Source of the DNA: Aspidiotus rigidus
Taxonomy: Eukaryota > Arthropoda > Insecta > Hemiptera > Diaspididae
DNA: 64,000 nt
Assembly (NCBI GenBank): GCA_035079385.1
Contig: JAVHKY010000013.1
Span: 7,128,001-7,192,000, forward strand
Direction of reading: 5' to 3'
Below are positions 11,767 through 54,567 of the stretch, one piece after another. Every line of letters starts with the position of its first letter. Positions within the stretch are counted from its first letter, which is position 1. Made by a program: the position numbers and the translations under genes. The notes beneath the pieces were generated by a model that was not told the DNA's origin, made no database searches, and worked only from the letters and a program-made list of their open reading frames with translations.

Positions 11767-14700
11767 CTATTTTTTTTGAAGCTTTTTAGCCAGAAAGTCG
11801 AAAGCTTTTTTCATTTCTTTGAACTTCCTTTCTAAATATCTTTTCTGTCCCAGCATAACATTCGCGTGGCGATCTGAAATTAATACGCGAGGTTAGAAAA
11901 TGGAACACCAGCGTCAACACCCAAAAGAAAAGTATATAGATAAATAAATAACCTGGATGTAACTCGAGAGCTTTCTTGTAGTAAGCTTTCTTGATTTGTG
12001 CGAAAGTAGCGAGCTGATTGACTCCAAGAATTGCGTGGAAATCTTTCCGTTCAGGTTGCTTTTCACAAAGCGATTTAGCCTCCTTCAATAATTCTTCAGT
12101 TTCTGTAATGTGAAGTTCATGGCGTTTACAGCAGAAATTAAATACAGTACGCAGTTCTTAACAGTTGTGTATTTAGAAGATTCTCGAAACAACAAAAAAT
12201 GTACAATTACTGCTCCTCTTCGTTTTATTTCTTCTCATTTTGTTGCAAGAGAGTGTAAGACGCCATCTTTTCCTTTTTTTTTTTTTTTTCCATTAACTTT
12301 ATGGAGGAATTTCACTATCGTTTGCTAGAATTCTCAAATCACCTTTTCATGAATAATTTTTTGGGGGAAAATTTTTGGTTTTGAAGCGAATGTCTTTTAT
12401 GAAGGACTAATAAATAATTGCAGGAGAATTTTATGAATAAAAAAATCCAACCAAAAAGTATAAGAAGACGAAGAGAAATAAAAGAAACAGCGCGAACGTT
12501 CTGAAGCAAACACATGAAGTGAGAGAAGAAATTCGGATAAGCCAATGCAGGCAGGCACTGAAGCAGGCATTAGCATGCAAAGAACTAAGTATTATTTGTA
12601 TTTTTGCTACTAAAAGGAACATGGTTGAAGGAAAATTCTTCTCCATTGAGAATTTCTTATCTATTGGAGCCTGAGAAACAATTATAGAATTTATATCCCA
12701 CGATAGTTACCGGAGGATTTCATAAGAAATAGGTAAAATCAAAATGGAACGACAAAAAGAAGCAATATAATGAACCGTTATTAAAAATAGGCTGCCTGCG
12801 AGCGTTAAAAATAATAATAACTGAAATGGAGTGGGAGGCAAAAAACGAGAATATGAGGATAGGGAAGAGAATTGAAAGGAGGAGTCGAGTCAGGTGGAGG
12901 AAAAAGACCAGATATGCACAAGTTGGAGTAATTGTGTTACTCAGGCAGTTGAACGAGTTGGAAACTTTTTTGGAGTAACTACATAGCGCAGAGGATATGA
13001 CTTGAATGTGTGTGCAAACTGTAGTGTGTGCAGTTTACTTGATGAGTGTGTGCAGATTACCAACTCCCTAATTATCAATGGCTCTCGGTGGTTCGATGGT
13101 CCTCTCGCTTTTACCTAGCATCAATCGAAAGGGGTTTTGGAAAGAGATCTACTCGTCAATGATCAGGTTTAAGATGAGCAACTCTCCTCTCATACACATA
13201 TAGGTAGTAATTATCTAGTACATACAACTACCACCTAAAAGACAAAGATGTTGTGACAATTGGGACCACTTGATCAAGTGAAAGACTTTCAAATACATTC
13301 TTCCTTTTGTCTTTATCTTTTGCTTCATTAAGTTATATGCGAGTGAGCCGTGGGCGTCGAATAGGTCCCATTTTTTATTGACAGTATGATTTTCAACGCT
13401 ATCATCATTGATTGAACTTAAATTATTACAGAAAGGCCGTTTGAAAAAGAAAATATTTCAAAAACGACAACAACAAAAAAAAGTCCGCTCACCAGGAGTA
13501 CTCTGAATTTCGTAGGCCATTTCATAATCTCGCACAGCTTCCGCGAATTGTTCAAGACTCATACAGCATTCCGCTCTTCTTAATAAGGCCTTCAAATATT
13601 TTTCTTCCAGTTGGAGAGCTTTTGTACAATCTTCAATTGAATCCACTGGATTCCCAAGCTGCAGACAGTCAACAGAAAATTTTTATCAGATATAGTAGAC
13701 ATGAATGTGAGCAGATTCGGTTACAGTTCCCAAAAAACGTTCGGTAAGTTGTACCTTGAAAGAAACAGTAGCCCTGTTGAAGTATAATTTAGCATTAATC
13801 GAATTATTCGAGAGATCGATTTCCAGCGCGGTTGAATAATATTCGTAAGCTTCATCGAATCGATTTTCTTTGAACGCTTTATTACCTTCCGCTTTGGTTT
13901 TCCTAAGCAGAGTAGCTCGCTGTAAATTAATTCAAAAAAATTAAATCAATCAAAGCGTCACTCACAACATGTCAATCATCTAGGCCTACATACTCGTAAT
14001 ATAAAATACACGACTCGAAACTTGAAGAGTGTAGATAAAAATTGATTGCACCATTGTCCTAGGGGGGGGGGGGGGGTACGTAAACAAGGGACGTGAATTT
14101 AAGTACATAATATAGGTAGTAAGGTAACAAAAAAATATTTCCTCGAAAATTTTCAATTCAATTCATCCCATAAGAGAACTCTCCTGTCTACTTCAATCTT
14201 CCTAAAGTGTATGATAAACTCCATGAACATGGAATCGTAAAACTATTTTATAAATCAAATATGCAAATTCAGCCTTACCTTATAAAGTTCGACCACTTTC
14301 GAGTGACCGGGCACAATCTTTGAAGCTTTTTGTAGACACCAGATCGCTTGATCGATGTCGCCTACGTAGTAGAAACAAATTCCGCGGACGTAGATTGCAT
14401 CTGCATTCCGATTATCGACGTCAAGAATATCATTAACGATTACTTCGGCTTCTTGACACCGTTTCAATGAAGCTAGACACTCCGCATTCAATAATTTCAT
14501 TTCTACACAATTTTCGGCGAATTTCATAGCTTTGAGCAAATGAGATAACGCCTGAAACATGAAAAACAAACCGAGAATAAGAATTATATTTGGGTCCAGA
14601 CGTTTGAAGAAATAAACGTCAGGTAAATAATACGGTGGGAAAAACAGTTGATTTTAATATCGCGAAAAGATGTAGAATATTTCATCCGGAGCGCTGGAAT

Positions 14701-17700
14701 ACCTCTTGTCGGGGCTGCTGTGGTTAACTGGGACATAAATTGTAAAAAATTAAAATTTACTTCGTCGTATTTCTTTTTCGCATAATACTGCTTCGCCTCC
14801 GCAAATTCTGTTTTCAAACTACGCAAATCATTTAATAATCTTAAAATCCGATTATCTTCAGGGTCGATGTTGAGCGCAACATCTATTTGTAGTTCGGCTT
14901 TTCGAATTTCTCCTATAGTGATAAACCTTTGGATTGTCTCTTCGTGCGCCTGAAATACAGTAACAAATTAGATAGTCAACTTCTATGCGGCCAATAGAGC
15001 AGTGGCGTAGCCAGAAATACATTCAAGATGGAGGGGCGACCACGGTCCAGGAGCGAGGACTAGAAATTTTTCTGTTCTTTAGCACCGACAGTAAATTCTG
15101 ATCTTCAAAAAGAGTTTCGCCCTCCTCGCTACGTCACTGCAGCAACAGAGTGCTCATTTTTTCAGTACATTTAATTTATATTTTCACCTGCATCAATTGC
15201 CATTTGGCATCTTTAAGACGTTGTTCCGTGTCTGCAACAGAAAGTTATCGATAAATTAACAACCAAGATAACGTTTTATGGATGAATTTAAATTAGAATG
15301 AAATAATTTTTCGTAATACGTCAATAGTCGGTATAGGGATTACATTTTAGTACGATTTCGACCTTGCTTACCGGGAGACTTTTGAAGTTCGTACGCCATT
15401 TCGTAATCTTTGATACCTTCGGCGAACTGTTTCAAGCCTACACGACTTTCCGCTCGTCTGAGTATCGCTTTCAAATAATTACCATCTAGGTGTAAAGCTT
15501 CCGTGGAATCTTTGATAGATTTCTTCAATTGACCTAGCTATAAATCAAATAGACACTTATCACTACGTACAGTCTACGCACCAAAGTGACAAAAAACTAC
15601 TTTTAAGGGACTATTTTTACTTTAAATGAAACCGTGGCCCTATTGAAGTACAACTTCGCATTTATAGAATCGTTGGTGCAGTCAATATTTAGGGCGGTAG
15701 AATAGTATTCGTACGCATCGACCAATCGATTCGCCTTAAATGCTATATCCCCTTTGGCTTTCATCTCCTTCAGTGATTTTGCTCGCTGTAAAAACAGAAA
15801 AATCGCAATGTTTGAAAAAAAAAAAAATCACCAAATAAATGGTATAAGATGAAGCGAAAAATTATAAGTTATAACCATCTATATTTTCCGAGGCCTTTTA
15901 GAATCTTTCAATGTACATCATGAGCGAAACTTTCCGCTTTATGGAATGTGGACTCGATCGTTTCTCTTTCCGCTTTATGGAATGTGGACTCGATCGTTTC
16001 TATTAAAGCGCTAATATTAGGCTTACTGAACCGAGGGCTATGGAGACCCTCCCAGCACATCCTAGAGTTCACAAATTGTGCGGAAAAACAAAAGCGTTTC
16101 TCTTTTATAATAACCGCTGGGAGTATCATTATAGGAATCTGAGAATCTAAGAATCTTTCCTGACGCAACTAACAACGCTTAAAATCGGACTCATATTGTC
16201 ATTCATGTCATCAAGTCTCTCACATTGGACCTACTCAGACCCGTAAATCAGAAGTTCATGAAATTTCTGCAACAGAAGAGGAAAAATTTGGGTGGGCGGC
16301 AATATCTATCATTATCAAAGCTAAAAAAAGTCCTCAGTTAGCATAGTTTTCTCTCCTCCCTCCTCTCCGATGGCTTGGCTTTCGTGTTGGCCATAGCTAC
16401 TCACCATGTTATCTTATGACTATAGCTTGATCAGGCAAATTAGCTTTAAAATGAAAAAAAATCGCTACCTCACGTTTGTTTGCGCAAGTGTGTTCATCAA
16501 GGTGCCCATGATAAAAATCAAAAATCGTTACTCTCTCACCGACGACGCTACCACCAGGAAGCAGAATGTCTCTGAATTTTAACAGGGAACCTGTTTTGTC
16601 GGGTGGAGGTCCTAAAAAACGTTGGCTGTTCGCCTTCCGGCTGGCCGGCGAAGTTCGGGGCTCGAAAATTTTCCAAGTCCCCCTCCTATCATATATAGTT
16701 CGGGGGTGGGGCTTTTGACGTCACAATTTGATGACGTCGTAGGTCAGCCTTGTGACTTCACAACCTGACCACGTCATGGATCAGTTTTAACAGGGAACCT
16801 GTTTTATGGGGGGCTTTTTCAGAAATTTGTCGTGCGCCGTCCGCCGTCCAGCAAAAAACTTGGAAAAATTTCGACTCTCGAGCTACCATATATAGCTCGA
16901 GATAGACAAATTTAGACTCTCAAACTATATTATACTAGGCTTATAGTAGGTCTAGGCGTCCTTTACGTACACTAGCTTTATCTAAGTCTACGCTTCCTTG
17001 AATTCTCAATACCAATATCCACTTGACTCATAAAACAGGTTCCCTGCGTTCCTCGTTCAACTTCGTTAAGGAAGCCGTCGTTTTTTTCAAGTTCCCCTCC
17101 TATCATGTATAGCTCGAAGGTGGGGCCTGTGACATCACAGTTTGATGACGTCATTGGTGAGCCTCGTGACGTCACAATCTACATTTTTCAGATTCTACGT
17201 GCCCCATAAAACAGGTTCTCTTGCCACTCCTCGTTCAACTCCGTTGAAAAACCCATGATTTTTTCAGTTTTTTCGATTTTCCTCAAAAACTATGGACTTC
17301 CGAGCAAAAATACATTACTCCAAAATTATCCTACATAAAATTTCCTACGAAGTGAATCCCCATACGAGTATAGTATTCCGATGAGTGAAAGTCGTACAGC
17401 AATTCTTTGAAATCTGAGGAAATATCATTTTTTCAACTTTTCTTGCATTTTTTGTAGAAAACATAATTGAGACGTCGAATATGCCACTTGAACTTACTTT
17501 GTAAATTTCAACTATTTTCACAACTCCTGGATCGAGTTTAGATGCATTTTGAAAACACGAAATTGCTTTATCAAGATCGCCCGAATAATAGAGACAAACT
17601 CCGCGAACGTATATTGCATCCGCATTTCGTCTATCGATTTCAAGAATTCTGCTGATGATCGCTTCAGATTCTTGATATTTTTTCATAAACGCCAAATATG

Positions 17701-20700
17701 CCGCTTTCGTAATTTGAAATTCATTGCAGTTCGGGGAAATTTCTATCGCGCGGTTCAAATGGTACTGCGCCTGCATAAATCCAACGTTTTTAAATCAAAA
17801 ACTTTTCAAAATACTGTTACAAATTATGCGACATATACATGAAAAGAACAGATGCCCAGAATATCATGTTTTACTTTAATTTTTCATTCCGTTCTCAAAT
17901 ATTATAACAATAAATTGTTGTAATTCATCTTTGGCTTCATTTTTCAGTTTTCCTTCTCTCACTCTTTAATTCAAATATCTTTCTAATCTTTCATGCATTA
18001 GACCAACCTAATTTTTTAGGTTTATCGTAAATTGTTTTTCTTTTCATCCCCTCATCAAAAATTTCAATTTTCATTATTTCCTCATTGTTCATATTCTTCA
18101 AAACTTTCACTTCTCTTTCATCTTCTTTTCCCACTTCGCTCCTTCATCTCATCGTTTTGTCTTCCTCTCCTCGAATGAAATCATCAAACGTGAACAAAAA
18201 AGACTCAATTAGGCTTGCCTATAGGGCTCTTCCTCTATATCATATTGTACTTTGTATACTTGTTTACCTGGATTCTTATCATAATGGTACTTCGTTCACG
18301 TTGGTATTATGGCAGAGGAATGGATATGCTATTATTGCATATTCAATTCCCCTGCCATAAGAGCAATGTAAAGCAAGTACCATTACGATAAGAATCAGGC
18401 AAACGAGGATGCAATATGATATAGGGAACGAGCTAGTTCGCGTCTTCTTTGTCATGTCCCAAACCTGATATTATACTTGAATTTGATGACCACACACGAA
18501 CATTTGAGTGAATAAGTATAAATCCATCTAAAAAATTGTCCGTTGTTCCCATTTGGGGTGAAGAGTGAAAATCAATACAAAAACTCATCGAATTTTTGGA
18601 CAAATTTGTAAAAGAAGTAGTTTGTGATGAGCCGACAGAAAATTATCATTTCCCACAAAATCTTCACAAAAAGTTTCAAGAGCATTTTTTAGTATTAAAG
18701 TGCCTTTATTGTACACTTGGAGTCAATCGTACAAACGGTTTCAACTTAGTTCAAAATCAAATTGGGCCAGGTAAAACTAGTTTAAAACCCGCGACCGATC
18801 CACACTTTACGAATAATCTGTCCATTCTTGGTTATAGGCCTTTTTTGGTCCCTTGACATTCGATGTTGTCTCGGATATTATTTCTCCGACTAACCCAACT
18901 CTATCTTGTCCTTTCATTAGGACCTGGGTATTCCTCTTCTTTTCTCCCTCTCATTACATTTAAACTCCCCAAATAACCAAACATAAATCAACTATTCACA
19001 GTAGATAAGAGTACCGGTACACATATTTAGTATAAAGATAAAGAAATTACTTGATTATAATCCTTATCAGTAAATAATTTTTCTGCCGCAGCGAATTCGT
19101 TTTTCAGAGTCGTCAATTCATTTTGCAGTGTCAGTAGGACAACATTCGATGGCTCCAAACCGATTGCGATTTTCAGATTTCGTTCAGCTGCTCGCATATC
19201 TCCAATTATGAGATAACATTTAACAAGTTTTTCGTAAACCTAAAATATATAGATTCATTTTTTCACTAAGTTACCATAGAACAAATTACTATAAAACTCT
19301 ATTATCGTACTTTAACGTTTTTGTCGTCCAATTTGAGGGATTTACGAGCGTCATTGAGAGCTTTGGAATATTGATTCAGTACCATATAACAAGCCGCCCG
19401 ATCCCAATACAGAGCCGGATTGTCCGGATAATCTGAGAAATTATTCCCAAAAATAATGAGGATTTATGAAGAAGAGCGCGGGTAAAGAATGTGTCGGAAC
19501 TTTTTCGTTTAAATTTACTTATGGCTTCGTTGCAAAGTTTCAATGCTTCCTCGTAATTTTTGTTCGCATATTCTCTTTTTGCTTTTCGCCGCAACTCGAA
19601 TGCATGCTCGCGATTATAATCTTGTCTGTAAATTGAAACATCATTAAATATTTTAGGGTTGCAGATACCTATAGTTGAGGCCAGATGAGGGAATTGGGAG
19701 GGTTGTAGGGGTGGCATCCTCATAAAATTTAATATATTACGATTTACTCATGAAAATCGAAGAAATATTTCCTTTTTTTTGGCATTGATGGAAAATTTCA
19801 AACCCCTTTCTTGAAGTTTTAGTAGTCTAGGACTGTGGAACCAAATATAGTTCAACCTGTATGAATGTCACGACTTAAAATAGGATAGTAAATCGATTAT
19901 TATGTGACAGATGTAATATTGCTATACACAGGCAAGTCTGATTAGGAAGTCAGATCCCTGCATATGTTCGAAAATCACACAGTTGTGATAAAAATAACCC
20001 TCTTCAATTCTGTGCAATGCCAATATGCCTAAGCTCCAATAAGGAAATTAGGAGTGAATAAAATTTTCAGATAGAGAATTGCCACAGAGAAGATGCCTAG
20101 GCCTATATGTACAACATATTATATAGCTTAAACTTACAAATCTTCTTCTTCACGATTCAAATCTTTTTCTTCGATCTTAATATTTTTCTCCTCATTCGAT
20201 TGGGGTTGACCACAAGCTGAAACACTTTCAATAAAAATTGTATTGGTGAAGAAATAATTTTCATACATAACAGATGTTGACAAAAATTTAAATATTTTAT
20301 AAATTTAGCGTTTCATTTCTATCAACCCAAAATCAACGTATCGAGTTTTTTTTTTTTTTTCTTTCTTTGCCACAGGTTTCAGACGATTGTAAACAGCTTT
20401 TGAAATTCGTTAACAGGCGATCAATTATACGTTGTATCTTCAAGGATTCAATTTACAATACCCAATGGACCCTTATCCTGTGACCTCACTCAGCAAGTAC
20501 ATTAGCAGAATCCCTGTCATTTGAGCCAAATGCATTTTTGACTCCCATAAGAAAAACATAGGCAACTGAGAACATTATGTCATAAATTTAGTGATTGAAG
20601 TTGTAGATTCGTAGGCCCCTAGTATTTGAAAATAAACTTCTGATAGCCAAGATCACTCCTGATTATCAATCAGAAGCCTAATGATCTCTGCTCCCTGTGT

Positions 20701-21400
20701 CTTTCTTTGGGAGTCGATAGTTCGTTAGGCTCGATAATTGACAGGGTTTCTGATAATTGTAACGCGCTATGACGTCAACAGGATAAAGGTCTATAGTGCT
20801 GGAATCAAGAATTACAGCGAGTGGTACCTACTACGGAAAGCGGGACTAATTAAACATATTCAGATCTAGAATCAGTATTATGATGTTCCCTCCGCGGAGC
20901 TTCAACTTTTTAAAATTGATATTTCAGTGATAGAGATTATTAGTCTCGATGAATCTTTCAATAATTCTTACTAACGCTACTACTTACTTCTTATTTGCCA
21001 TAAATCCACCTCCATGATCTCCTCCACCATCCTCAACCTTGGTTTCGTTAGTTCGCGTTCTTTCGACACCACAGGATTCACAAAATTTTGACAAGTTTTG
21101 ATTCTTATTGAAGCCATTCTCTGTTTTCTTTTTTTTTTCCGCACTTTTAGGCGGTTTTCTCGAGTACTGCACTGTCAGTTTGCACCCTCGAAGTTTTCGG
21201 CCGTTCATTTTTTCGATAGCGGTGTCTGCTTCCTCTTGTGAAGCATACGCTAAGAAACCGTTCACACATTTTTTCCTTCTGGTGGATCTAACGGAAATTT
21301 TGCTGTCCAGGATCTTTCCGTAGCTTTTGAACGCTGTTACGAGATGCTCCGTTTCGATAGCTCGATTCAAACCGCCAACGAACAGTTCGTATCTAGTCAT
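11767..21400 (-). CDS. Copy A: RRM - 16 TPR - J-domain co-chaperone, intact
   Basis: Predicted DNAJC7/TPR2-type Hsp70-Hsp90 co-chaperone with an RNA-recognition motif in front. Exons: 21400-20988, 20224-20138, 19625-19519, 19432-19311, 19239-19051, 17770-17498, 15785-15621, 15537-15372, 15231-15188, 14949-14761, 14551-14279, 13919-13755, 13658-13493, 12102-11953, 11873-11767. All introns are GT-AG, frame is kept at every junction, and the sum is 872 codons including TAG. RRM is residues 4-82. TPR 1-9 span about 170-507 and TPR 10-16 about 523-787. The J domain is about 803-870, with HPD at 835-837 split by the last intron. The second TPR block keeps a full carboxylate clamp for EEVD tails (K685, N689, N724, K754, R758); the first has Asp in place of the first clamp Asn. 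The protein stops right after J helix III, without the usual DNAJC7 tail. Exon 2's acceptor is unusual. Start: first ATG of the RRM frame. Fusion to the RRM exon needs cDNA proof. Confidence 0.82.
15908..16570. other. Intron 6 of copy A, simple tandem duplication
   Basis: Intronic sequence. A 36-bp unit (CTTTCCGCTTTATGGAATG followed by TGGACTCGATCGTTTCT) is directly duplicated at 15927-16001. The rest is AT-rich and nothing else is recognised before the transposon cluster that begins at 16578. Confidence 0.6.
16578..17265. mobile_element. Cluster of 45-bp-monomer elements in intron 6 of copy A
   Basis: Two element starts (TTAACAGGGAACCTGTTTT at 16578 and 16787) are followed by GTGCGCCGTCCGCCGTCC and CTTGGAAAAATTTCGACTC. 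Inverted ends (CATAAAACAGGTTCCCTGCG and CCCATAAAACAGGTTCTCTTG) lie near 17030 and 17205, each next to the CGTTNAACT(T/C)CGTTGAA/AAGGAA hairpin. Three CRE-like blocks with TGACGTCA palindromes are included (about 16717-16785 and 17128-17182). The cluster sits between exons 6 and 7 and contributes no coding sequence. Confidence 0.7.
18223..18438. mobile_element. Near-complete 215-bp palindrome (foldback element) in intron 5 of copy A
   Basis: The left arm (TCTATATCATATTG, then GATTCTTATCATAATGGTAC, then TTATGGCAGAGGAATGG) is repeated in inverse order on the right (GGGGAATTGAATATGC back to CAATATGATATAGGGAACGAGCT). The arms are about 100 bp, roughly 80-85 percent matched, with a loop of fewer than 10 bases near 18331. 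Absent from copy B at the same place, so it is a later insertion. Confidence 0.75.
20988..21400 (-). CDS. RRM exon of copy A
   Basis: This 413-nt first coding exon holds a complete RRM. RNP2 reads LFVGGL (residues 6-11), as in Musashi/hnRNP A-type motifs. RNP1 reads VNGFLAYA, keeping one of its two aromatic RNA-contact positions but with Ala at the other. The C-terminal strand (KLTVQYSRKP) is followed by a Lys-rich and then Gly/His-rich linker. The exon ends in phase 2 at a consensus GTAAGT donor whose own bases supply a TAA in the exon frame, so an unspliced message would make a stand-alone RRM protein of about 138 residues. It could alternatively be a separate small gene; conserved donor and phase in all three copies argue for fusion. 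Confidence 0.7.
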
Positions 21401-21972
21401 CACGAATGGATTGTACGTCGACAATAATTAATTATAATCTCTCATAGGTGGGTGTAAAGTGCATACTGTGGCTCACGCTCAGAAGTTGGACTCGTATGGA
21501 AATCTATAACATGGTATTATATTCAATAGGGAGTGAACTTAGTTGAGACTTTTCTATTGAGTGTTTATATGCATCATACACTATCATATTCAAAGTAAAT
21601 CAACCTGGTGATAAGATTTAGATAAGTATAAATTATATTAAAGATCAAGAATTACCGTAACTATGAAATCGCAAATCAGAAATATTCATACGCTTATTGA
21701 TACATACGGTATAGTCGTACGTATTAGAAATCCCAAGTCTCAAATTGTCATGGGTATTACACAGACTAAAAAATTATAATATTCTCTTAATTCGGTACAG
21801 GATTTGTACGGTCTCCAAAACGAGTTTTAAAACCTTTGTGTGTACAATTCGAAGTTTTCTTATCTCAATGATTTCTGTACAGGTTACAGTCCCGTAAACA
21901 TCTGGTAGATAAGTATACCTATAGCGGTTAAAGTCCACGAATGAGAATGTTGAATATTCTGCGAATACGTAC

Positions 21973-22060
21973 CAATCAATGAGAAGTCATCCTTCGAAAC
22001 CATGTGAAATCGAGAAATATAATAATCCGATGCAGAAACAGCTCGCAGTGATTCAATTCC
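21973..22060 (-). other. Putative noncoding 5' leader exon of copy A
   Basis: On the minus strand a donor GATTG|GTACGTATTCG lies about 570 bp before the ATG. The same junction context is kept in copy B (exon edge 40322) and copy C (exon edge 55080), at 670 and 510 bp from their ATGs. The 5' boundary is unknown; the coordinates are nominal. Confidence 0.45.
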
Positions 22061-26822: not shown

Positions 26823-26850
26823 GTTCTGGTGATGCATATGCAGGTTGGCA

Positions 26851-29265: not shown

Positions 29266-29279
29266 ATAAAGGAGGCCTG

Positions 29280-42835: not shown

Positions 42836-43304
42836 GAGAAATAATCAAATAAGCACATTCCACGGTCACAGGTAGGTATCTTTTATTCATCTAGCTAGCC
42901 AAAACTGCCGGATGAGGAATGAATGTCGAAAATGGGGTTTGAAGCCAATTAGAGCCAAAAATAACCGATTCGCTGACTAATGCACTAAGGTATTGAATAT
43001 GTGTACAGGTGTACACTTAACGCATTCGCCTCATAATGTTTATTTGCGGGAAATGTATAGCCGGGCTAATCCCTTGTTGAATGAATACCTAGATAACGTT
43101 TTATGCATTTCAATTATTGTTTCAATTTGCGTTGAAGTTTCTTTAACGAAAAAAAACAAAAAATTCTTAAAAGGTGTACACAATAAAGTATAATATGTTA
43201 ATCGAGTTAACTCTCTTGAGTACAAATACAACCCTTTTTAATAAAGTATATCTTTCTAGAAAATTTAGGTAACTCTAAATATTTCAATTTTTAATCTTAA
43301 TAAC

Positions 43305-46300
43305 TTAGTTCTTGGTTCTTGGAAGGTTTTCAGCCAGAGAGTCGAAAGCTTTCTTAACTTCTCTGAATTTCGCCTCGAAATATCTTTTCTCGGCTGGCAT
43401 AACATTCGCATGGCGATCTGAAATTAGAATGGTACGCGGAAATAAGAAAATGAAAGTTTGCGTTCATAATCAAGAAAAATGCAGATCAGTAACCTGGATG
43501 AAACTCGAGAGCTTTCTTATGGTAAGCTTTCCTAATTTCTGCGAAAGTAGCGGGCTTATTGACTCCAAGAATTGCGTGAAAATCTGGTCGTTCAGATTGC
43601 TGACGATAAAGCAATTTGGCCTTATTCACCATCACTTCAATTTCTACAATGTAAAAAATATTATTGGCACCCACACACAAATTAAATAGTTAGTTCCTAC
43701 TACGTACCCAAATACAAATAGCCTAAGTTCATCACAAAAAAGTACTCATATAGGCCAAGGTGTAAGAAAAAGAAAGACACACAAGCTTCTGCTCTTCTCC
43801 AATAGGATTTCTTTATTCGAAATTCTCTCACCAATTTAGAATATGAATAAAATACCGTAATTCAGTACCTATTAAATCACTGACTAATGATCATCAAGAG
43901 AGAGGAAATCGCATACTTGGGCCATAAGTAAGACAAGATTATATCATACTCACAGACATGATAATTCAGAGAGAGAAGAAGAAAACACTATTTTTCTTGA
44001 TCTTAGGGTTGTAAATGATTAGAATTATCGAGAATTTCGTTATTTCTAGTCCTCCAAGACAGAATGATTAGGTATATGAGTTTTTTACCCTAGTAACAAT
44101 TGAGCAGCAGATCTGACAACGTTTCCACCGCGTGCGCGTGAAATTGCCACTTTTTTGGCAGAAACGCTGAGCGGAACTGCCAGCGTTTCTGCTTTACGCT
44201 GTCACACGCAGCAGAAACGCTGTCAAATCTGCTGTTGTTGCGCGTGAAATTACCACTTTTTTTGAGAAAACGCTAGCGTTTCTGCCAGCTTTTCTGCCAC
44301 ATCGGCCATCCGGAACGCTGTCTCAATTGTTAGTAGGGTAAGAGGGGAGAGTCTGTTGATCACAGTAATTATCTTCTACCGGTACACATTAAAGTTACCC
44401 AAAATTGGCATCTTACATTGTACATACTTATTAAAATTACCCACCAAATAAGCATCTGATAACAACTGAGATCTCTCGACCAAGTAGATGACTCTTTAAT
44501 CGCAGTTTACAATACCTATAAGCTCTTTCTTCTTGGTTTCCTTAATCCCAATGCTCTCACTTAATATTGAGCAAAATATAATTTATAAAAAATTATTATG
44601 TACATGGTATGATTTTCAACGCTCATATTGTTTAAACTTGAATTACAAACGGACCTTTTAAAATAGAATTATTTCTGAAAATACAATCAATAAAAAACGT
44701 CAGCCTCACCACGAATACTCTGAATTTCGTAGGCCATTTCATAGTCTCGCAAAGCTTCAGCATATTGTTTTAGACTCATATAGCATGTCGCTCTTCCCAA
44801 TAACGCTCTCAAATATTTTTTTTCCAAACGGAGGGCTCTTGTACAGTCATCAATTGATTCCAGAAGATGACCGTGCTCACCCAGTTCATAGAAAATCTTC
44901 ATTAGGAGCATAAATATTAAGGAGAAGATGAGAAAAAATTGTGAAAAACGTCGAAATTTTTTTTCGCGCCGTCAGGCTATACCTTGAAAGAAGCGAGAGC
45001 TCTGTTGAAGTGGAATACAGCATTAACCTTATCATTCGAGGGATCAATTCCCAACGCTATTGTATAATATTTGCGGGCGTCGTAGAATCGATATTCATTG
45101 ACAGCTTTGATGCCTTTTGAATTCATTTCATCAATCCGAATGATTCGCTGTAAATTAATTTTAAAAAATCAAGTTAATACCCCATCGTTGTTTTCAGTTA
45201 CTCCACAACATCTTAAAAACTCCTTGATAGACACGTAGTGAAATTCGTGTAATGTGGCTCATGATATCCGGAAGCGAAATTTTTTCATGAGTATATCTTA
45301 TTTTCAAAAGGTTGAATTGAATAAAAGAGAAAACTGTCGTTTCAACGCATCGTAACCCTAGGCTGTAATAAGATGCGATTTAAAAATATCCCACTGTTCA
45401 AATATGCGACTTTAGCCTTACCCTATGAAGTTCGATCACTTTTGGGTGTTTAAGGCCGAATTGATAAGCTTTTCGTAAACACGAAATCGCTTGACAGAGA
45501 TCGCCTTCGTAGTAGAAACAAATTCCAAGGACGTAGATTGCATCTGCATTCCCAGCATTGACGCCGAGAATATCATCGATGATTTCTCTAGCTTTTTGGC
45601 ACTCTTTCGTAAGAGCCAGACACTCCGATTTCATTATTTTCACCTCCAACCAATTTGGGGCGAACTTCATAACTTCGCGCACATGAGATAAAGCCTAAAA
45701 CAAAATTGTATCACCTTTTATCCAAAACAAACCAAATAAAGATCATGTTCCATGTCTTTTTACATGCCTTACATGTTCGAATTCACCCGCGAGCTAGTTA
45801 GCCAAAATACTATGTGTCAGGTTTATACTAGCTTATGAGCTAGATTGCCTCTTCTGGCTAGTTGAAGTCTTGTTAGGCTAACTAGCCCTTGAGCTCACTC
45901 GTCCCGCTCATTCAACTCCTTCTCAGTATAGTTTAAGCCTATAATACACTGTTTTTTGTGCTCAATTCCGAGGAGAATTTATTCTCATCTGTCCTACTTG
46001 TCCCCAGTTGTCCTTTTTTGTCCAGTACCGTATTGGCCTTGTTGGACGGCACTTCAAAGTAGAAAAAAAAAATCTGACGTGTTCAAGGCACTCAAAGTGA
46101 GACTTGCTCTTTATTCGTTTCACACTTTTAAAATCAACTTTTGTATTTGAGGATTTACGTTTTCTTTGAGAAGAGGAGAGTACCTAGTATTGAACATTAT
46201 TTTTGACAAAAGTTGAAGGATTGCAGGAAACCTGTTTTATGGGAAATATTTGCAAGTTATTCGGGTAGGGGAGCTTGGAAAAATCGAGTCGACATTTTTT

Positions 46301-49300
46301 CCTAGTCACCCTTCTCTCATATATGGCATGAAAGTCGTATCGAGTTTTCCCAATCTTGTCATATGTATGTAATTCGAGAGTCAAAATTTCGCCAAGCTTT
46401 TCTCCCTTCTTTCATGTATTCCAAGTTCTTCTCCCATCAAATACAGCACGAAAGTCGAATTTTCGTTAGTCCCTCCCTTACAGCTGGATAGTCAAAATTT
46501 CTCTCCCCTCCCAGTCTCAAGTTAGATTAGGTTGGTGGATGGCGAGTGGCGGATACCAGATATATTCGCAAAATGAACCATCTGTCAAGTGCACAGGTTC
46601 GTAATTGTATTAATGTTGCAACATGATTGGGTGTTCGGCAGATGTAGGACACAATCACATTATCGGATACACTAAATTTTCAAGAACGGAGGACCAGCCT
46701 CATGGCTGAGCGTGGTCAAATCAACATAAGGCCAGCAATAATATACGGTTGAGAAAAGTAAAAACAGTCGAGCCTGATAAGTAAACAATATTTCTCCTCG
46801 AAAAAAGAGGGGCGCAAGAATGCCTCATGCTGGGGCTGCTGTGAATACTTCAGGACACGAATTGTAGAAAATGAAAATTTACTTCATGAAATTCTTTGTT
46901 CGCATAGTATTGCTTTGCCAACTCAAATTCAGTTTCCAAACTACTCAAATCTCTTTGAAGTTGCAACATCATCTCGTCGTCAGCTTTGAACTCGAGTGCG
47001 ATATCTATTCGTAACGCAGCACGGCGAATTTCTCCGCCCATCATGTAACTTTTGATGACCTCTTTGTGAGCCTGAAATGCAATTATGTAGGAATTAACTT
47101 CCGTATGGCCAACGGATGGACCATTTTGTCGACACATGAAAAATATTTTTACCTTCATCAATCGATCTTTCAAATCATCAATAACTAAATCTATTTCTGT
47201 AACAGAAAAATACCGATAAATTAACATTCAAGTATCCCATAGTATTACAGTAGATAAATTAAGTAAATCCTGGGTTTTTCTTCGACTAAATTAGAATATT
47301 CTAATTTTCATGCAATACATCAACAATCCAGGTATATTAGGAAATGAAAAAGGAGAAAATTGCTGCGGAAATGAAATTTGGTACCTACCACCGTCCTCCG
47401 TTAGGAACCGCTCTTTGATAAGGAAAAATTCCGGGCCTGTTGCGACACAAGTGTATTGGCAATAGAAAATCCACAATGTGTGGTTTTACTAAAAAACTTC
47501 TTACGTCCGTCGTCTCATAGATGTGTAGCCCTCGAGTCGAGATTATATCAGGCATTTTGCAGGAAACCTGTTTTATCGGGGGTTATTTCGGGGAAAATTT
47601 CCCGTGTCCGCTGCCCGGCCGGGAATTTAACCTACAGGGGGACTTGACAAAAATTACGGCTTCCTTAACGAAGTTAAACGAGGAACGCAGGGAACCTGTT
47701 TTATGATTCGAATGAGATTTGGTATTGAAAATTCAAGGAAGCCTAGATCATATATAGCTCGACAGTCGAAATTTTTCCAAGTCCCCCTTCTATCATATAT
47801 AGCTCGAGAGTCGAAATTTTTCTAAGTCCCTCTCCTATCATATATGGCTCGAGAGTCGAAATTTTTCTAAGTCCCTCTTCTATCATATATAGCTCGAGAG
47901 TCGAAATTTTTCTAAGTCCCCCTTCTATCATATATGGCTCGAGAGTCGAAATTTTTCTAAGTCCCCCTCCTATCATATATAGCTCGAGAGTCGAAATTTT
48001 TCCAAGTCCCTCTCCTATCATATATGGCTCGAGAGTCGAAATTTTTCTAAGTTCCCCTCCTATCATATATAGCTCGAGAGTCGAAATTTTTCCAAGTCCC
48101 TCTCCTATCATATATGGCTCGAGAGTCGAAATTTTTCTAAGTTCCCCTCCTATCATCTATAGCTCGTGAGTCGAAATTTTTTCTAAGTCCCCCTCCTATC
48201 ATATATAGCTTGAGAGTCGAAATTTTTCTAAGTCCCTCTCCTATCATATATGGCTCGAGGGTCGAAATTTTTCCAAGTTTTTCGCTGGACGGCGCACGGC
48301 GGACGCCAGATTTCTCAAATAGCCCCCCATAAAACAGGTTCCCTGTTAAAATTACGGCTTCCTTGACGACGCGACGTTAAACGAGGAACGCAGTGAACCC
48401 ATTTCATGAGTCGAATCCTCGAATTGGTTCTGATATTGAGAATGATCATTTGGAGTCCCGAAGAGTCTAAATTTTTCTGATTAGCTCGAGAGTCGAAAGT
48501 TTTCCAAGTTCAACTTTTTTATTGGGCTAGGTCAGTTTTTGCGGGACGGGGAGCGACGAGACACCGAAACCTTCAGAAAGACCCCCCCCCCCCATAGAAT
48601 GGTTTCCTGTTAGAAATTATATAGAAATACAGGAAACGAGAGAGACTTGAAAAAAACGACGGCTTCCTTAACGAAGCGAAATGAGGAACGCAGGGAACCT
48701 GTTCTATGGATCGAGTAGGTTTTGATATTGAGAAAGTATTCAAAATTGGAGTCCCGGAGAGTCTACATTTTTTTGCGTCCCCTACGTGTAACTCGGAAGT
48801 CGACATTTTCCCAAGTCCCACTCGTATCATTTATTGCTCAAAATTCGAGATTTTTTCTAGTCCCCCTGTTTCTTGCACCCTTCGTTCGACTCATTCAAAG
48901 AACCTAACCGGGAGTTTTTTCCCTCTATAAGCCTATATTCAATGTTTCCAAGTCAACCTTCCTCCCCACACCCTCTACTTCCCATCGTTCGTTGGTCATT
49001 CTTCGTCGACAGATTTCAACAAGTAATCAGAAAGGAATGCTGACCCTCATTAATGTGGTGCAAAATAGTACCGATCAGATAGCAAGTACGAGTAAAATAA
49101 GAAGTGGAACTTACCAGGACAACAATGCTGAAGATCGATTGCCATCTTATAATCTCTCGCAGCTTTTTCGAACTCTTTCAAGGATAGAAAACATTCCGCT
49201 CTCAAGTATATCGCTTTTGGAAATTTTCTCTCACGTTCCAATACTTCCGTGCAATCTTTTATCGAATCTTTCAATAGACCGAGCTTATATGTAAATTAAT

Positions 49301-52300
49301 AAAAACAATTATCATCCTAGGCCTACACTCATACAATAAATAACAAAAGACAACTTTTAAGCAACTTTTTCTTACTTTGAAGGAAGCGAAAGCTTTATTG
49401 TACAACGATATATTATTTATGGCATCATTTGTATCGTCTATATGTTGGGCGGTAGAAAAACAATCGATCGCAATCTGGAATCGACCCTCATCGATTGCGT
49501 TTTGCCCTGCAACTGCAAGCTTCCTCAATGTTGTCGCTCGCTGTAAATGATAAAATACGTATCGCAATTTAAAGTGAAATAAAAATTCATTATAGATATT
49601 CTGTATTGGTCGTTCTCAATCTGCGAGGTAGAAGATCAACTCTATTCCGAGTCATGAAAAATACAAATCCAGAGCAAAACTTTCTAATTATGAGCTTGAT
49701 TGGGGCGAGAACGTTTCTTGAATGTTACCATCATGTTGAATACAGATTACAAACATTGATAGAATGGAAATTCTATCCATGATGTCTAGAAGAACCAATA
49801 CGTATTATACGGGGTCAAACTTGATTTTTGTTGGTGCTTTACCAACATTCGAAGTTTGAATACTTATCAATTAGTCAAACAGAATCTAGATTCTTCATTC
49901 GCCTAATTTAATAAAAACAAAAGCCTTTGAAAAAAATGGGGAAACTATACCTTTGACCCCTATTCGCAGCCCCGTTGATCCCTTTATTCCCGCTCTTTTC
50001 ACAGTTGAAACCTTTCGCATTCCTGGGATCGAAGGGCTTCAACAGGAACAAACCTGAAGCCCTACTAACAATTGAGACAGCGTTTCGGACGGCCGATGTG
50101 GCAGAAAAGCTGGCAGAAACGCTAGCGTTTTCTCAAAAAAAGTGGTAATTTCACGCGCAACAACAGCAGATTTGACAGCGTTTCTGCTGCGTGTGACAGC
50201 GTAAAGCAGAAACGCGCCAAAAAAGTGGCAATTTCACGCGCACGCGGTGGAAACGTTGTCAGATCTGCTGCTCAATTGTTACTAGGGAGCCCTTCTGATC
50301 TCCGGGCTTCATTTGGAAAGAACTACCGATTTCATTCTCTTTTACGCGTAAAGCAAGCACTGCTTCCCCTTTTGAATTCCTGAAGCTCTTTTGCATTTTT
50401 GAAGGCTTCAAGTGGGAACTATGTTTATTGGGAAGAGTTACAATGTTTTCTCATGAGCTTTTAACTTTCGTACCTTTCGAGGGAATTAACTTCTAAAGTA
50501 CAACTTTAAACGTACCAGAAACATGTTATACGCTTTGGGATGTTTAGGAGCGAGCTTCAGCACTGCATGAAAGTATTTGACGGCGTTCATGATGTTCCCA
50601 ACGTAATAAGAACATAATCCCCGTACATAAATGACGTACGGATTTTTCTCGTCGGTTCTAAGAATTTTATTGACAATCACAAGAGCCTGCGGGAGCATCT
50701 TCATAAGAGCCAAGCACTCGGCCTTCATAACGAAGAATTTGATACAGTTTGGAGAAACTATCAAGGCACCGTTTAAATGGTTCACGGCCTGCATAAATCC
50801 AACATTTGTAATAAATTAGAAACATTCTTAAATACTTTCTATAGCTACGTGTAAATTACAAGTAGGTATACAGGTAATATAAAGAAAGGGCATGTTTATC
50901 AAAATATTCTAAGTCAAATCTTTTTTCCATTCTTCTTAAATATTTAACAATAGTCGTAGCGATTCTCAATCCTCTTTTCTCACTCTTCGTTAAATATATC
51001 ATCCAGTTCTTTTGTGCGATGAAGCAGCCTTCAATCTGATTTCATTCTTCATATTTTCTATTTTCCTTCCTCTCTGATTCGATTAATTTCTCCTTCCCTT
51101 AGTTAACGTTCTCTTTCGATTGCCTTGTAGGCCTAATTTCACTTCTTCTGCCTTCATCGTTCTGTCTTCATTCTTTCAAAAATAACATGAACAAACGTCA
51201 ACAGAATGATAGGGCTCAACCAGTGGTGATTTTTTCATATAAGTAAGTACATGAATAAAGCAGTGATTTCCGTCATCAAAGGTTTGACGATGTGAGAAAA
51301 GTCCCGACGAGCGTCGCGTACTGACCGCTGGTAAACCGAACCTTAAAGGGTATTAGGGGCGGGTATAAAGTTCATCACCGGTGACGTCCCAATGCGATAT
51401 TTGAAAACGATAGCCTATAGGGTCATTCACGGTCGACGTCACGTTGTATAGATATTTGCTCGATGTGGCTTTATCCAGTAGAAATATCGTTGAAAAATAT
51501 CTAAGAATGAGATCGATACCTATTTCCATCACTAATGTAAACAATTTTTTTACACGTTATTCCTTATGGGAACAAATTTGGTTCTAAAATTCGTCAAATA
51601 TAGCGAGAACGGAAAATTTCTTAGGAACAAGTATTGTATGATGGCAATCTAAGAACTTCTCAGTAATAAAAAAGTAAGTTTTGGTTCCTTACAAACAATT
51701 TCTTTTCGAAGTATTCAACGATTTCAGGAACACTATTTTTTCTTATGGGAAAGTACGTGCAAAAAAAATTGCTTACATTTGTGATGGAAGTATCGAACTC
51801 TAGAAGATCGATAGTTCGTATTATTATCAGTGATGACTGATGTGACGTCAGCGTGAAAGACTCTACTACCGTACGCACATTTCTTCCAGTTAATATTATA
51901 TCGATTCCCATGGAAATAGCATTGGTAACATTTGATCATACATCAGTACCTATTTCAAAATGAAGTATTTATAAGGAATAAAGAAAGTTGGTTCTCGAAT
52001 GCCGGATGGCTTTTGGACTACAAATATATATACTTTGTATTCCTTGTTTATTCCTCATTTTGAAATACTAATGTATGATCGAACGTTACTCCAATACTAT
52101 TCTCATGAGGATCGATGTCTGCTGAAAGCTGCTGTACTGTTTTCCGCGGGGTGATTCAACACAGAATAAAAAATAGGGATAGGAACTCGTCAAATTATCT
52201 AACAGGTTTGTAAATGAGGTGGTCAGCGGTGAACCCGCAAAAATTTGAAAAAAGTAATAATAATAATTTCACCACTTTGTTAAAAATTAAATTATTGGAA

Positions 52301-54567
52301 CATGGACATAGTTTGCTCTTTCAGTATTTCTTAGCCTAGAGTCAAACTACGATCCTAGAGTTATAAACTAACTATATGATACTCTTTCCGCTTGTTCACT
52401 TTTTTCCTTCGAGTCTTGCCCTCCCTATTCTACAAGTATTTCTTAGCCTAGTACAAGTCTATAATATACAGAATGTTAGACTAACTGAACTAGCTGACGG
52501 GTTCATTTGCTTCGCTTGTTTGCACTTTCCTCCCCTGCCTCACTCCTTTCTCAATAGCCTCATATCAGCTTAGTATACTGTATAACTCTTAGTAAGATAA
52601 AATGAAGGTCAAGGATTCAAATCCCAGAAAAACAAAAACTTTAAAGTAGATCAAGGTCAAGCGTGAAGCAAATTTCCGACTGACCCCCAGCCGGAGAGAA
52701 AACAAAAAAAGATCAGTTGGAAAATTTTACAACTAAAGCTTTAGAAGCGTTTTTCCGAGAGCAAAATAAAAATAATAGCATTCCTGGCCAAGTTTGAAAT
52801 CAAAGTTCAACTTAAATATATTGTTTGGACCATAAACCTAGTTAAGAACTATCACGCCCGTCATCTTCCTTGGTATAACTAGTTCATTCAATATTAACCA
52901 TTCTAGTCATAGGCCTCTTCTGGTCTTTAACATTGTGCTCTGTCTTCAACTTGAATTGAATCCTGCTTCTTCGTCCACATCAACCCAAATTTCACCCCTC
53001 ATTTCGTCTTTTCATTTGGATCTTCTTCCTCTTTTCACCATTAACTTACAGCTTTCAAAATCTTCAGTTACCGGTACACACAATTGTCATAAATTGAACA
53101 TTTAAGGGCATATAAGTAACTTAGTTAAGACAAATTACTCGGTTGTAATTCTTAGAAGAGAATGATGTTTTCGCTGCACCGAATTCATTTTTCAAAATTT
53201 CTAAATCGTTATGCATCGTCAACAATTTTACCGATCGTCCCAACTTGACCGCTATTTTCAAATTTTCTCCAGCCTCTGCCATATTTCCCGTTATGAGGCA
53301 ACATTTGATAAATAATTCGTACGCCTAAAATATAAATTCAATTTGCTTCTGAGTGTAGAAGGCTTTTACAGTAGAGTAGGTATACAACATTAATTTTGTA
53401 CTTTAAAGTTCCTATCGTTCAATTTGAGGGATTCACGAGCGTCTTCGAGAGCTTTAGAGGCTTCATTCAGCATCATATAACAAAGTGACCGATCCAGGTA
53501 CAATTCCGGATTGTAAGGTGATGAATCTAAGAAATTATTTTCGAAAGAGACATAAACAAATGAAGAAAAAACGCGCTGGTGGAGAGTGAACTGGAAATTT
53601 CTAGTTTATATTTTTACTTATGGCTTCGTTGCAGAGTTTCAATGCCTCTCCATAATTTTCCTTCGCATATTCTTCAAGCGCTTTTTGCTGCAACTCAACC
53701 GTCTGTCCGCAATAATCACGTCTGTAATTGGTACAATATAAAATAAATTAATAGGTACCTATTTCGAGTAGGTATTGATGGGATTGTATAAATGATAGGT
53801 CATTGAGCAGATATATAATTCTGAATAAGCGATGGGGGGATGCGTTGTAGATCAACTTCTCGAAGTTTATACGCACGATTTACCTGTGAAACAAAAAATT
53901 ATACCGCTCATTTCCTGAAAAAGTTTTATCAACGGTACCTACATCTTCAAACTTGATTCGAAATTCAATCTATAATGCCAAAATTCTCAATTTATTGTAC
54001 GCTGAAATGAAGAATCACAGGAAAAATAGGAAGCTTAGCCTAAAATAGATTCTCGGTCAATGTCCTCTTATTCCTCAAAATCATAATCGTCAGCAATGCA
54101 AATCGTAACAGTCTCAATGCATATTATAATAAATTGTACATTAGGCCTACTTACTTCTTATTTGCCGAAAATTCACTATCGGAGTCTTTTCCGCCATGCT
54201 CAGCTTCAGTTTCGTTACTTTGGATTCTTTTCACACCACGAGAGTTGCGAACTACGGGCAAATTTTGAACCTCTAAGGCCCATACCTCATTTTTTTCCGC
54301 ACGTTCGTTAGGTTTTTTGGAGTACTTTATTTTTAATTTGCACCCTTGAAGTATCTGGCCATTCATTTTTTTCATAGCCGTCTTCGCTTCATCTTTTACA
54401 CCGTACGTTATAGAACCGATTGTCAATGTCTTCTCCTTCTTTGATGTAACGGAAATTTTGCATTCCAAGATCCATCCATAGCGTTCAAACGTCTTTACGA
54501 GAAGCTCCTTTCCGATAGTTTCATTCAAACCACTAATGAGCAGTTCATACACATATTTGGTACTCAT
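43305..54567 (-). CDS. Copy C: divergent RRM - TPR - J-domain co-chaperone, open throughout
   Basis: Exons: 54567-54155, 53721-53618, 53526-53402, 53324-53139, 50788-50516, 49540-49376, 49283-49115, 47196-47153, 47071-46883, 45694-45422, 45147-44983, 44896-44710, 43643-43494, 43417-43305. The total is 2556 nt, 852 codons with stop, in frame. The exon matching exon 2 of A/B (near 53950-54010) has stops in all frames and must be skipped; being 87 nt in the other copies, its loss keeps frame. The exon at 44896 is 21 nt longer than its counterpart and uses a weak acceptor (AATGAAG). The J domain is intact (HPD 813-815, tail FDSLAENLPRTKN). Both TPR clamp sites are lost (Arg to Leu or Gly, Lys/Asn replaced), and the RRM lost its RNP2 aromatic (LLISGL) and most of RNP1. 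It probably keeps Hsp70 stimulation but has changed partners. Confidence 0.78.
44088..44338. mobile_element. MITE with CCCTAGTAACAATTGAG ends, in copy C intron before the J exon
   Basis: Ends CCCTAGTAACAATTGAGCA and, inverted, CCCTACTAACAATTGAGAC. TA flanks both sides. The interior carries TTTCCACCGCGTGCGCGTG, CAGAAACGCT and CACGCAGCAGAAACGCTGTC words. A second copy in the opposite orientation lies at 50060-50287 in the same gene. The short duplication and ends are noncanonical; the superfamily is not assigned. Confidence 0.8.
46215..46520. mobile_element. 45-bp-monomer element copy in copy C intron
   Basis: Starts with GCAGGAAACCTGTTTTATGG (46223) and continues with degenerate monomers (CTCATATATGGCATGAAAGT, TCGAGAGTCAAAATTTCGCC, CCCATCAAATACAGCACGAA). 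It lies between the exons at 46883 and 45694. Older than the array at 47.75 kb, judged by divergence. Confidence 0.6.
47573..48420. mobile_element. Complete 45-bp-monomer element with central tandem array
   Basis: Left end AGGAAACCTGTTTTATCGGG, right end CCCCCCATAAAACAGGTTCC (about 48323), i.e. inverted ends. Hairpin segments (CTTCCTTAACGAAGTTAAAC at 47660, repeated at 48360) flank the tandem array at 47748-48270. A further, more degenerate member continues to about 48930 with the same ends (CATAGAATGGTTTCCTG, CAGGGAACCTGTTCTATGG). It lies in the copy C intron between the exons at 49115 and 47196. Confidence 0.65.
47748..48270. repeat. 45-bp tandem array, about 12 monomers, with 90-bp dimer pattern
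   Basis: Monomers read CATATATAGCTCGAGAGTCG then AAATTTTTCTAAGTCCCTCT then CCTAT. From the second to the tenth, monomers alternate between TATAGCTC and TATGGCTC, a dimeric higher-order pattern; one monomer (starting about 48153) carries an extra T. Because 45 is a multiple of three the minus strand stays open for 137 codons as a 15-residue repeat (MIGGxLxKISTLEPY), which I take as a by-product. Confidence 0.9.
50060..50287. mobile_element. Second copy of the 44088 MITE, opposite orientation, in copy C
   Basis: Begins CCCTACTAACAATTGAGACA and ends CTCAATTGTTACTAGGG, with AG on both sides. Lacks about 24 bp present in the 44088 copy (the TGAGCGGAACTGCCAGC region). It is otherwise about 90 percent identical in inverse orientation, and it sits between the exons at 50516 and 49540. 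Confidence 0.8.
51902..52125. repeat. Inverted-repeat element in copy C intron
   Basis: Left arm (GAAATAGCATTGGTAACATT, GATCATACATCAGTA, TTTCAAAATGAAG) is matched inversely by CTCATTTTGAAATACTAATG and TATGATCGAACGTTACTCCA on the right, arms about 75-80 bp. A related sequence at about 61415-61447 and 61829-61880 is the site into which the hAT MITE at 61448 inserted. Confidence 0.65.

Follow-up and report, generated by a model that had tools for sequence, protein, structure and literature searches.

Human DNAJC7 is described as a series of tetratricopeptide repeat (TPR) domains ending in a J domain, in the order TPR1-2a-2b-J (PMC8429438). In reported work, contact between its TPRs and the EEVD tail is essential for the J domain to contact Hsc70, and ATPase stimulation depends on the J domain (PMC13254874, PMC13278352). 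DNAJC3 (p58IPK), a protein of the endoplasmic reticulum (ER) with a signal sequence, has three TPR domains followed by a J domain and is reported to be structurally very similar to DNAJC7 (PMC13254874). DNAJC17 carries an RNA recognition motif (RRM) after its J domain, and work on the human Hsp70 network calls it the sole RRM-bearing J-protein (PMC12248113); its RRM is reported to inhibit the J domain and its ATPase stimulation, and no bound RNA was recovered with it (PMC13388955). The rice protein Os03g04400 is described with a C-terminal RRM (PMC6730974). In literature searches pairing RRMs with J-proteins, we met no RRM-TPR-J protein in the portions of the sources available. Here we analyzed a 64,000-nucleotide window of the genome of the scale insect Aspidiotus rigidus (assembly GCA_035079385.1, contig JAVHKY010000013.1, positions 7,128,001 to 7,192,000 of the forward strand), in which three tandem, fast-evolving paralogs each appear to join an RRM exon to the TPR and J exons of a DNAJC7-like protein. 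We put the probability that these exons form one fused gene at roughly 0.7, and within the searches made RRM-TPR-J is likely a new architecture in a known family.

Results

All three paralogs (copies 1, 2, and 3) are coded on the minus strand, from the first base of the copy 3 ATG at 54567 to the last base of the copy 1 stop at 11767. Each model has 14 coding exons (e1 and e3 to e15), with an optional e2 added in copies 1 and 2, and runs from e1, holding one RRM and a tail in which acidic residues and glycine are abundant, through the TPR exons to the J domain. A preliminary description, made from the letters of this DNA, had proposed that the RRM exon of each paralog ends at a phase-2 donor and that the next shared exon accepts phase 2. 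Both proposals hold in 3/3 copies: e1 (21400-20988, 39654-39245, and 54567-54155) ends at the donor GAA/GTAAGTAG in phase 2, and e3 takes phase 2. The fused gene is the best reading of the DNA because of these splice sites, the frame they preserve, and the finding of no other start in copies 2 and 3. Scored with sites from the array's other introns, leaving out sites of the same exon number, the e1 donor reaches 9.04 in 3/3 copies, tied fourth to sixth among 41 donors, and only 0.68% of GT sites on both strands of the window score as high. The e3 acceptors score 10.68, 10.68, and 7.69 in copies 1, 2, and 3, which places them among the best 0.56%, 0.56%, and 2.08% of AG sites. Near-identical stretches in copies 1 and 2 make the training sites non-independent. 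The exons are as follows.

Copy 1 e1, 20988-21400, minus strand: ATG, RRM (residues 6-75), and acidic tail; phase-2 donor
Copy 1 e2, 20138-20224, minus strand: optional; 87-base form in frame, 79-base form (20216-20138) out of frame
Copy 1 e3, 19519-19625, minus strand: start of TPR1, phase-2 acceptor
Copy 1 e4, 19311-19432, minus strand: TPR1
Copy 1 e5, 19051-19239, minus strand: end of TPR1, start of TPR2a
Copy 1 e6, 17498-17770, minus strand: TPR2a
Copy 1 e7, 15621-15785, minus strand: TPR2b
Copy 1 e8, 15372-15537, minus strand: TPR2b
Copy 1 e9, 15188-15231, minus strand: 44-base joining exon, like the start of the J exon
Copy 1 e10, 14761-14949, minus strand: duplicate of e5
Copy 1 e11, 14279-14551, minus strand: duplicate of e6 (TPR2a')
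Copy 1 e12, 13755-13919, minus strand: duplicate of e7 (TPR2b')
Copy 1 e13, 13493-13658, minus strand: duplicate of e8 (TPR2b')
Copy 1 e14, 11953-12102, minus strand: J domain to HP and the first base of D
Copy 1 e15, 11767-11873, minus strand: remainder of the J domain and stop, without a G/F-like tail
Copy 2 e1, 39245-39654, minus strand: RRM exon, donor as in copy 1
Copy 2 e2, 38716-38802, minus strand: optional, corresponds to copy 1 e2; open and in frame at 87 bases
Copy 2 e3, 38059-38165, minus strand: phase-2 acceptor
Copy 2 e4, 37859-37983, minus strand: coding exon
Copy 2 e5, 37620-37774, minus strand: broken, 34 bases less than in copy 1, with frameshift and stop
Copy 2 e6, 36344-36616, minus strand: coding exon
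Copy 2 e7, 34953-35117, minus strand: coding exon
Copy 2 e8, 34704-34869, minus strand: coding exon
Copy 2 e9, 34520-34563, minus strand: coding exon
Copy 2 e10, 34092-34280, minus strand: coding exon
Copy 2 e11, 33435-33707, minus strand: coding exon
Copy 2 e12, 32929-33093, minus strand: coding exon
Copy 2 e13, 32675-32840, minus strand: coding exon
Copy 2 e14, 31266-31415, minus strand: J domain
Copy 2 e15, 31060-31166, minus strand: end of the J domain
Copy 3 e1, 54155-54567, minus strand: RRM exon, donor as in copy 1; RNP aromatics lost
Copy 3 e3, 53618-53721, minus strand: phase-2 acceptor, 433 bases past e1
Copy 3 e4, 53402-53526, minus strand: coding exon
Copy 3 e5, 53139-53324, minus strand: coding exon
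Copy 3 e6, 50516-50788, minus strand: coding exon
Copy 3 e7, 49376-49540, minus strand: coding exon
Copy 3 e8, 49115-49283, minus strand: coding exon
Copy 3 e9, 47153-47196, minus strand: coding exon
Copy 3 e10, 46883-47071, minus strand: coding exon
Copy 3 e11, 45422-45694, minus strand: coding exon
Copy 3 e12, 44983-45147, minus strand: coding exon
Copy 3 e13, 44710-44896, minus strand: coding exon with the preferred acceptor
Copy 3 e14, 43494-43643, minus strand: J domain
Copy 3 e15, 43305-43417, minus strand: end of the J domain, stop

Upstream of e3 the open frame extends over 41 codons in copy 1, 48 in copy 2, and 9 in copy 3, and in copies 2 and 3 it contains no ATG. The e1-e3 interval was also scanned for exons beginning with ATG and ending at a phase-2 donor that scores no lower than the poorest donor in training; copies 2 and 3 gave none, in a scan that did not extend to possible first exons 5' of e1. 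The absence of an ATG at the TPR part, which the preliminary description had claimed for each copy, is thus confirmed in copies 2 and 3 and fails in copy 1, where in-frame ATGs precede e3. A start within or just before e3 was rejected as a general explanation, since copy 1 alone has ATGs there.

The optional e2 exists in an 87-base form, which begins 8 bases further upstream than a 79-base form. The longer form is open and in frame in copies 1 and 2, and the shorter is out of frame from the phase-2 donor. With slightly different training sets for the two forms, the acceptors of copies 1 and 2 score 8.65 and -1.87 for the 79-base form and -3.62 and 0.03 for the 87-base form. The 87-base acceptor of copy 1 is poor (43% of AG sites score equally well), and the e2 donors, at 1.23 in copy 1 and -2.46 in copy 2, are the two lowest of the 41. 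Between copies 1 and 2, the ratio of nonsynonymous to synonymous change (dN/dS) in e2 is 0.55 over 25 codons. No e2 was recognized in the e1-e3 interval of copy 3, where the best ungapped match (34/79) is at shuffle level (mean 33.5). We kept e2 outside the main models; e1 joins e3 in frame with or without it.

To this junction the relatives add a hint. A pattern for the first TPR was matched in 89/122 relatives (the DNAJC7-like set plus two proteins introduced below, P0121 and P0122). Among the 24 without an acidic N-terminus, the residue before the first TPR is R in 15, S in 3, and another in 6; among the 65 with one, it is R in 14 and S in 2. R or S is what readthrough of a phase-2 acceptor (..AG/N) would give, so the ordinary DNAJC7 exon 1-2 junction may perhaps be phase 2 as well, with the reservation that several of these R and S may be natural residues.

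The RRM itself is recognized by Pfam as RRM_1 in copy 1 (E 2.4e-13, 50.2 bits) and copy 3 (E 1.5e-9, 38.1 bits), against a cut-off of 20.7. Given the four available e1 sequences as input, structure prediction returns a confident RRM over residues 1-80 (pLDDT 85-93 by block), with the order beta-alpha-beta-beta-alpha-beta, and a disordered-looking tail (pLDDT <50 over most of 87-138). The best Foldseek matches in PDB are RRMs, among them those of TIA1 and Fox1, with PABPC1 at rank 22. At the positions taken to be those of the ribonucleoprotein (RNP) motifs, copies 1 and 2 retain the F of RNP2 (LFVGGL, LFIGGL) and an F at position 5 of RNP1 (GFLAY), with no aromatic at position 3; in copy 3 (LLISGL and GSITY) L and S replace the aromatics. 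As a single-sequence query e1 found no matches. A profile of the three copies found P0121 (142 aa, E 1.1e-38) and, weakly, P0122 (E 1e-6), which has an RRM and is otherwise dissimilar. P0121, from a 1815-base ENA contig, is 52% identical over 100% of e1; it has the RRM and acidic tail, presumably keeps the RNP2 aromatic and one RNP1 aromatic like copies 1 and 2, and ends in GFTANKE where the window copies end in GFMANKK, RFPADTK, and EFSANKK. This full-length match indicates that the RRM exon is a unit conserved beyond the window.

For the pairs 1-2, 1-3, and 2-3, e1 differs at 0.193, 0.317, and 0.374 of nucleotides, and counting estimates on these related pairs give a dN/dS of 0.69, 0.62, and 0.43 for e1 (bootstrap P(dN>=dS) 0.10, 0.032, and 0.000 of 2000), 0.61, 0.60, and 0.39 for the RRM only (P 0.135, 0.079, and 0.0035), and 0.42, 0.44, and 0.47 for the whole coding sequence (copy 2 e5 omitted). 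A neutral simulation (substitutions only, starting from copy 1, 2000 runs per level) preserved an uninterrupted frame of 137 codons in 1.75% of runs at 20% divergence, 0.45% at 30%, and 0.2% at 35%. These values point to weak to moderate purifying selection on e1 and on the coding sequence.

Several points weigh against a single fused gene. It is read here from DNA, the introns that trained the site scores were modeled by hand in these same genes, and the splice state is inherited, so that three copies are not three independent tests. The e1 dN/dS of pair 1-2 is not clearly below 1, and the nucleotide alignment of e1 between copies 2 and 3 has gaps of 9, 4, and 2 bases, of which 4 and 2 are singly not multiples of 3. 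A profile of the four e1 sequences, run on 122 proteins, matches P0121 and P0122 only and none of the 120 listed DNAJC7-like proteins (of 213). The remaining points would suit two neighboring genes duplicated together: a small RRM gene that lacks introns and stops at TAA, and a DNAJC7-like TPR/J gene that has a promoter of its own and whose first exon has escaped notice. One codon beyond e1, an in-frame TAA (AAG TAA) follows in 3/3 copies, so the DNA also codes for a free RRM protein of 137-138 aa; P0121 is itself listed as a free protein of 142 aa ending where e1 ends; copies 2 and 3 have AATAAA between e1 and e3; and copy 1, with its in-frame ATGs before e3, also has three candidate ATG exons in the interval, whose donors score 3.67, 3.67, and 5.33 (training median 8.17). 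A phase-2 GTAAGT donor, however, necessarily reads NNG TAA, so the TAA is the donor itself and not independent evidence of a separate gene, and the shared end of P0121 fits a conserved donor (GAG TAA read as GA/GTAA) and a conserved stop equally well. Two genes would also require the 433 bases of copy 3 to accommodate a promoter and a coding exon as well as a 3' end. No alternative first exon turned up between e1 and e3 in copies 2 and 3, and this interval of copy 1 has no AATAAA, only one ATTAAA, but AATAAA lies some 172, 175, and 260 bases past the final stops of copies 1, 2, and 3. Taking both sides together, we consider two co-duplicated genes unlikely and retain the fused gene.

The fused models are open throughout in copies 1 and 3. 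Copy 1 is open over 842 aa without e2 and 871 aa with it, and copy 3 over 851 aa with the preferred e13 acceptor or 844 aa in an earlier form of e13; the 844-aa form served for the Pfam search, the whole-coding-sequence dN/dS, the J-end comparison, and the clamp and exon-length comparisons. That earlier e13, from 44875 (acceptor -7.65), was replaced by one from 44896, 21 bases upstream, which scores 2.13. The proposed lengths of 871 and 851 residues were thus reproduced as alternatives, through the 87-base e2 in copy 1 and the upstream e13 acceptor in copy 3, and a Pfam search of the spliced copies 1 and 3 recovered RRM_1, TPR families, and DnaJ. Copy 2 departs from the proposal that TPR exons lead to an HPD-bearing J domain in all three copies, which stands for copies 1 and 3: its e5 has 155 bases, versus 189 in copy 1 and 186 in copy 3, and brings a frameshift and a stop. 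If e5 is skipped, copy 2 is open over 779 aa (808 aa with the 87-base e2); it is probably decaying, or skips e5. Apart from this exon, lengths are equal or differ by multiples of 3 across the copies in 13/14 exons, a register that makes the exon pattern no product of chance. The HPD codons, with conserved surroundings, are kept in 3/3 copies, as membership in DNAJC7 would have it, and are split by the last intron (CAT CCA G/AT, e14/e15), which is why a plain search for the motif came up blank.

The TPR part, named after human DNAJC7 (PMC8429438), holds TPR1, TPR2a, and TPR2b, and then an extra 2a'-2b' block before the J domain. In copy 1, e10-e13 have exactly the lengths of e5-e8 (189, 273, 165, and 166 bases) and share 32%, 53%, 71%, and 57% of residues with them, and e9 is similar to the beginning of the J exon (identity of 57% over 14 residues in copy 1, 50% over 14 in copy 2, 25% over 12 in copy 3). 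This likeness suggests that a segment running from e5 to within the J exon was duplicated before the copies split, and the resulting order is probably RRM-TPR1-2a-2b-2a'-2b'-J. A later exchange is also probable: 14594-15827 and 33926-35159 of copies 1 and 2 align over 1237 bases, introns included, at 95.9% identity, beside an adjoining matched stretch (13093-14592) at 78.8%, which suggests recent gene conversion between these copies.

At the positions taken, after HOP TPR1, to form the EEVD clamp, P. citri (Planococcus citri) DNAJC7 reads RNNKR in TPR1 and KNNKR in TPR2b. The corresponding residues are RKDKK (copy 1) and QLDKL (copy 3) in TPR1, KDNKR and AQNKL in TPR2b, and KNNKR and NINRG in TPR2b'. 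The clamp is complete in 1/6 of these domains, the TPR2b' of copy 1 (5/5); TPR2b of copy 1 keeps 4/5 and its TPR1 is degenerate, as are all three domains of copy 3. The proteins of copies 1 and 3 reach no further than the J core, after which P. citri DNAJC7 continues with SDPNKRSRYD and a tail; both have lost the G/F-like region after the J domain.

Relatives were sought with spliced copy 1 among 7994 scored candidates; length eligibility was 0.55-1.75x the query, so a missing relative is no proof of absence. Among the 120 listed of 213 matches, the best is the DNAJC7 of P. citri, a mealybug of the Coccoidea (P0001, 497 aa, 47% identity over 43% of the query). In a midpoint-rooted tree of 19 rows, comprising the three window copies without e7-e11 and 16 proteins from the 120, with one scale-insect sequence in the set, the window copies join this protein with support 100/99, and their branch is 1.22 changes per column long. 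P. citri DNAJC7 shares TPR1-TPR2a-TPR2b and an HPD J domain near the C-terminus. It differs in having no RRM, a single TPR2a-2b block, intact clamps, and the parts after the J core; its short, disordered N-terminus stands where the window models have e1. Provided that e1 is spliced to e3, the window genes are DNAJC7-derived and not plain DNAJC7. The idea that the e1 tail descends from the former first exon of DNAJC7 ('SEF..NEK' in P0001, 'SEFSANKK' in copy 3) was discarded, the likeness being too short.

DNAJC17 (Cwc23) also combines an RRM with a J domain, but with an N-terminal J domain, a coiled coil, and a late RRM, and with TPRs outside its described architecture; the RRM-TPRs-J order that Pfam finds in copies 1 and 3 therefore differs from it, and the distinction drawn beforehand from both DNAJC17 (PMC12248113) and DNAJC7 (PMC8429438) agrees with what these sources describe. 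DNAJC3 provides the best solved J-protein match (2y4t, E 9e-26) and differs in its ER location and in a described architecture that does not extend to an RRM. The DNAJC7-like LOC109040028 of the whitefly Bemisia tabaci (P0014, 1068 aa) also has extra TPR blocks, but after the J domain, and no RRM was found in it. DNAJC7 may be prone to such rearrangement in Sternorrhyncha.

Decay of all three copies into functionless relics, with the fusion a mere accident of duplication, would account for the frameshifting shortfall of copy 2, the very long branch, the degenerate clamps, the loss of RRM aromatics in copy 3, and an e1 dN/dS weakly below 1. Against this, copies 1 and 3 differ at ~31% of coding sites and yet are both open over >840 codons, their dN/dS is 0.44, and HPD is kept in 3/3 copies. 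We regard decay of the whole array as very improbable.

Other features were noted in the window. Within introns of copy 3 lie a 251-base inverted pair (44088-44338 and 50287-50060, 90% identical) that resembles a small mobile element, and a tandem array of 11.8 copies of a 45-base unit (47747-48278) with sequence kinship to the surroundings at 1947-2097 and 16785-17098. A further array, of 3.6 copies of a 266-base unit, occupies 5-993. On the plus strand, a 367-aa open reading frame with an SH3 domain at its start (62899-63999) leaves the window edge and belongs to a separate gene.

Discussion

If the fused gene is real, its history and action may be sketched as follows. Before the three copies diverged, DNAJC7's first exon would have come to encode an RRM and acidic tail, the TPR2a-2b block would have been duplicated within the gene, and the C-terminal G/F-like region would have been lost. 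Use of the GTAAGT donor of e1 would join the RRM exon to e3, where the TPRs begin, perhaps via e2 in copies 1 and 2, and would yield one protein, whose HPD-bearing J domain would stimulate Hsp70 and whose TPRs would hold clients, the last TPR domain of copy 1 possibly still taking the EEVD tail of Hsp70/Hsp90. The RRM would either add targeting to an RNP partner or gate the J domain as in DNAJC17; the targeting step taken alone is tentative, and we would sooner bet against it than for it.

Within the fused gene, the RRM might instead be a protein-binding or inhibitory module of a client-holding protein with little coupling to Hsp70/Hsp90, a serious possibility that we place somewhat short of even. 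DNAJC17, whose RRM is reported to inhibit J and yielded no bound RNA (PMC13388955), shows that such a motif can restrain the ATPase stimulation of a J-protein and can do without stable RNA binding. The incomplete clamps of copies 1 and 3 relative to P. citri DNAJC7, and the missing parts after the J core, point the same way, whereas the aromatics presumably kept at RNP2 and RNP1 in copies 1 and 2 and in P0121, and the 5/5 clamp of copy 1 TPR2b', weigh against this reading. The recruitment of Hsp70/Hsp90 to RNA put forward in the preliminary description is correspondingly weakened: HPD in 3/3 copies speaks for it, and the incompleteness of 5/6 clamps, the lost RRM aromatics of copy 3, and the DNAJC17 analogy speak against it. 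From the residues retained, an Hsp70 co-chaperone role seems plausible for copy 1 and doubtful for copy 3, whose clamp and RNP contacts have probably ceased to function.

Taken as a whole, the boldest form of the fused-gene reading is doubtful: a scale-insect family of RNA- or RNP-directed Hsp70 co-chaperones of the order RRM-TPR1-2a-2b-2a'-2b'-J, in which the DNAJC7 first exon was replaced or extended, the genes lie in tandem and diverge fast, and the RRM steers or gates the J domain. DNAJC7 is reported to handle RNA-binding clients such as TDP-43 (PMC13254874, PMC13278352). An RRM-DNAJC7 fusion, if true, would be nature's own experiment on how a client-holding co-chaperone is altered by an RNA-binding module. 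Since its phase-2 GTAAGT donor ends the open reading frame, such a fusion would be hidden from gene finders that do not splice, and it would bear on how fast the specificity of a J-protein can change.

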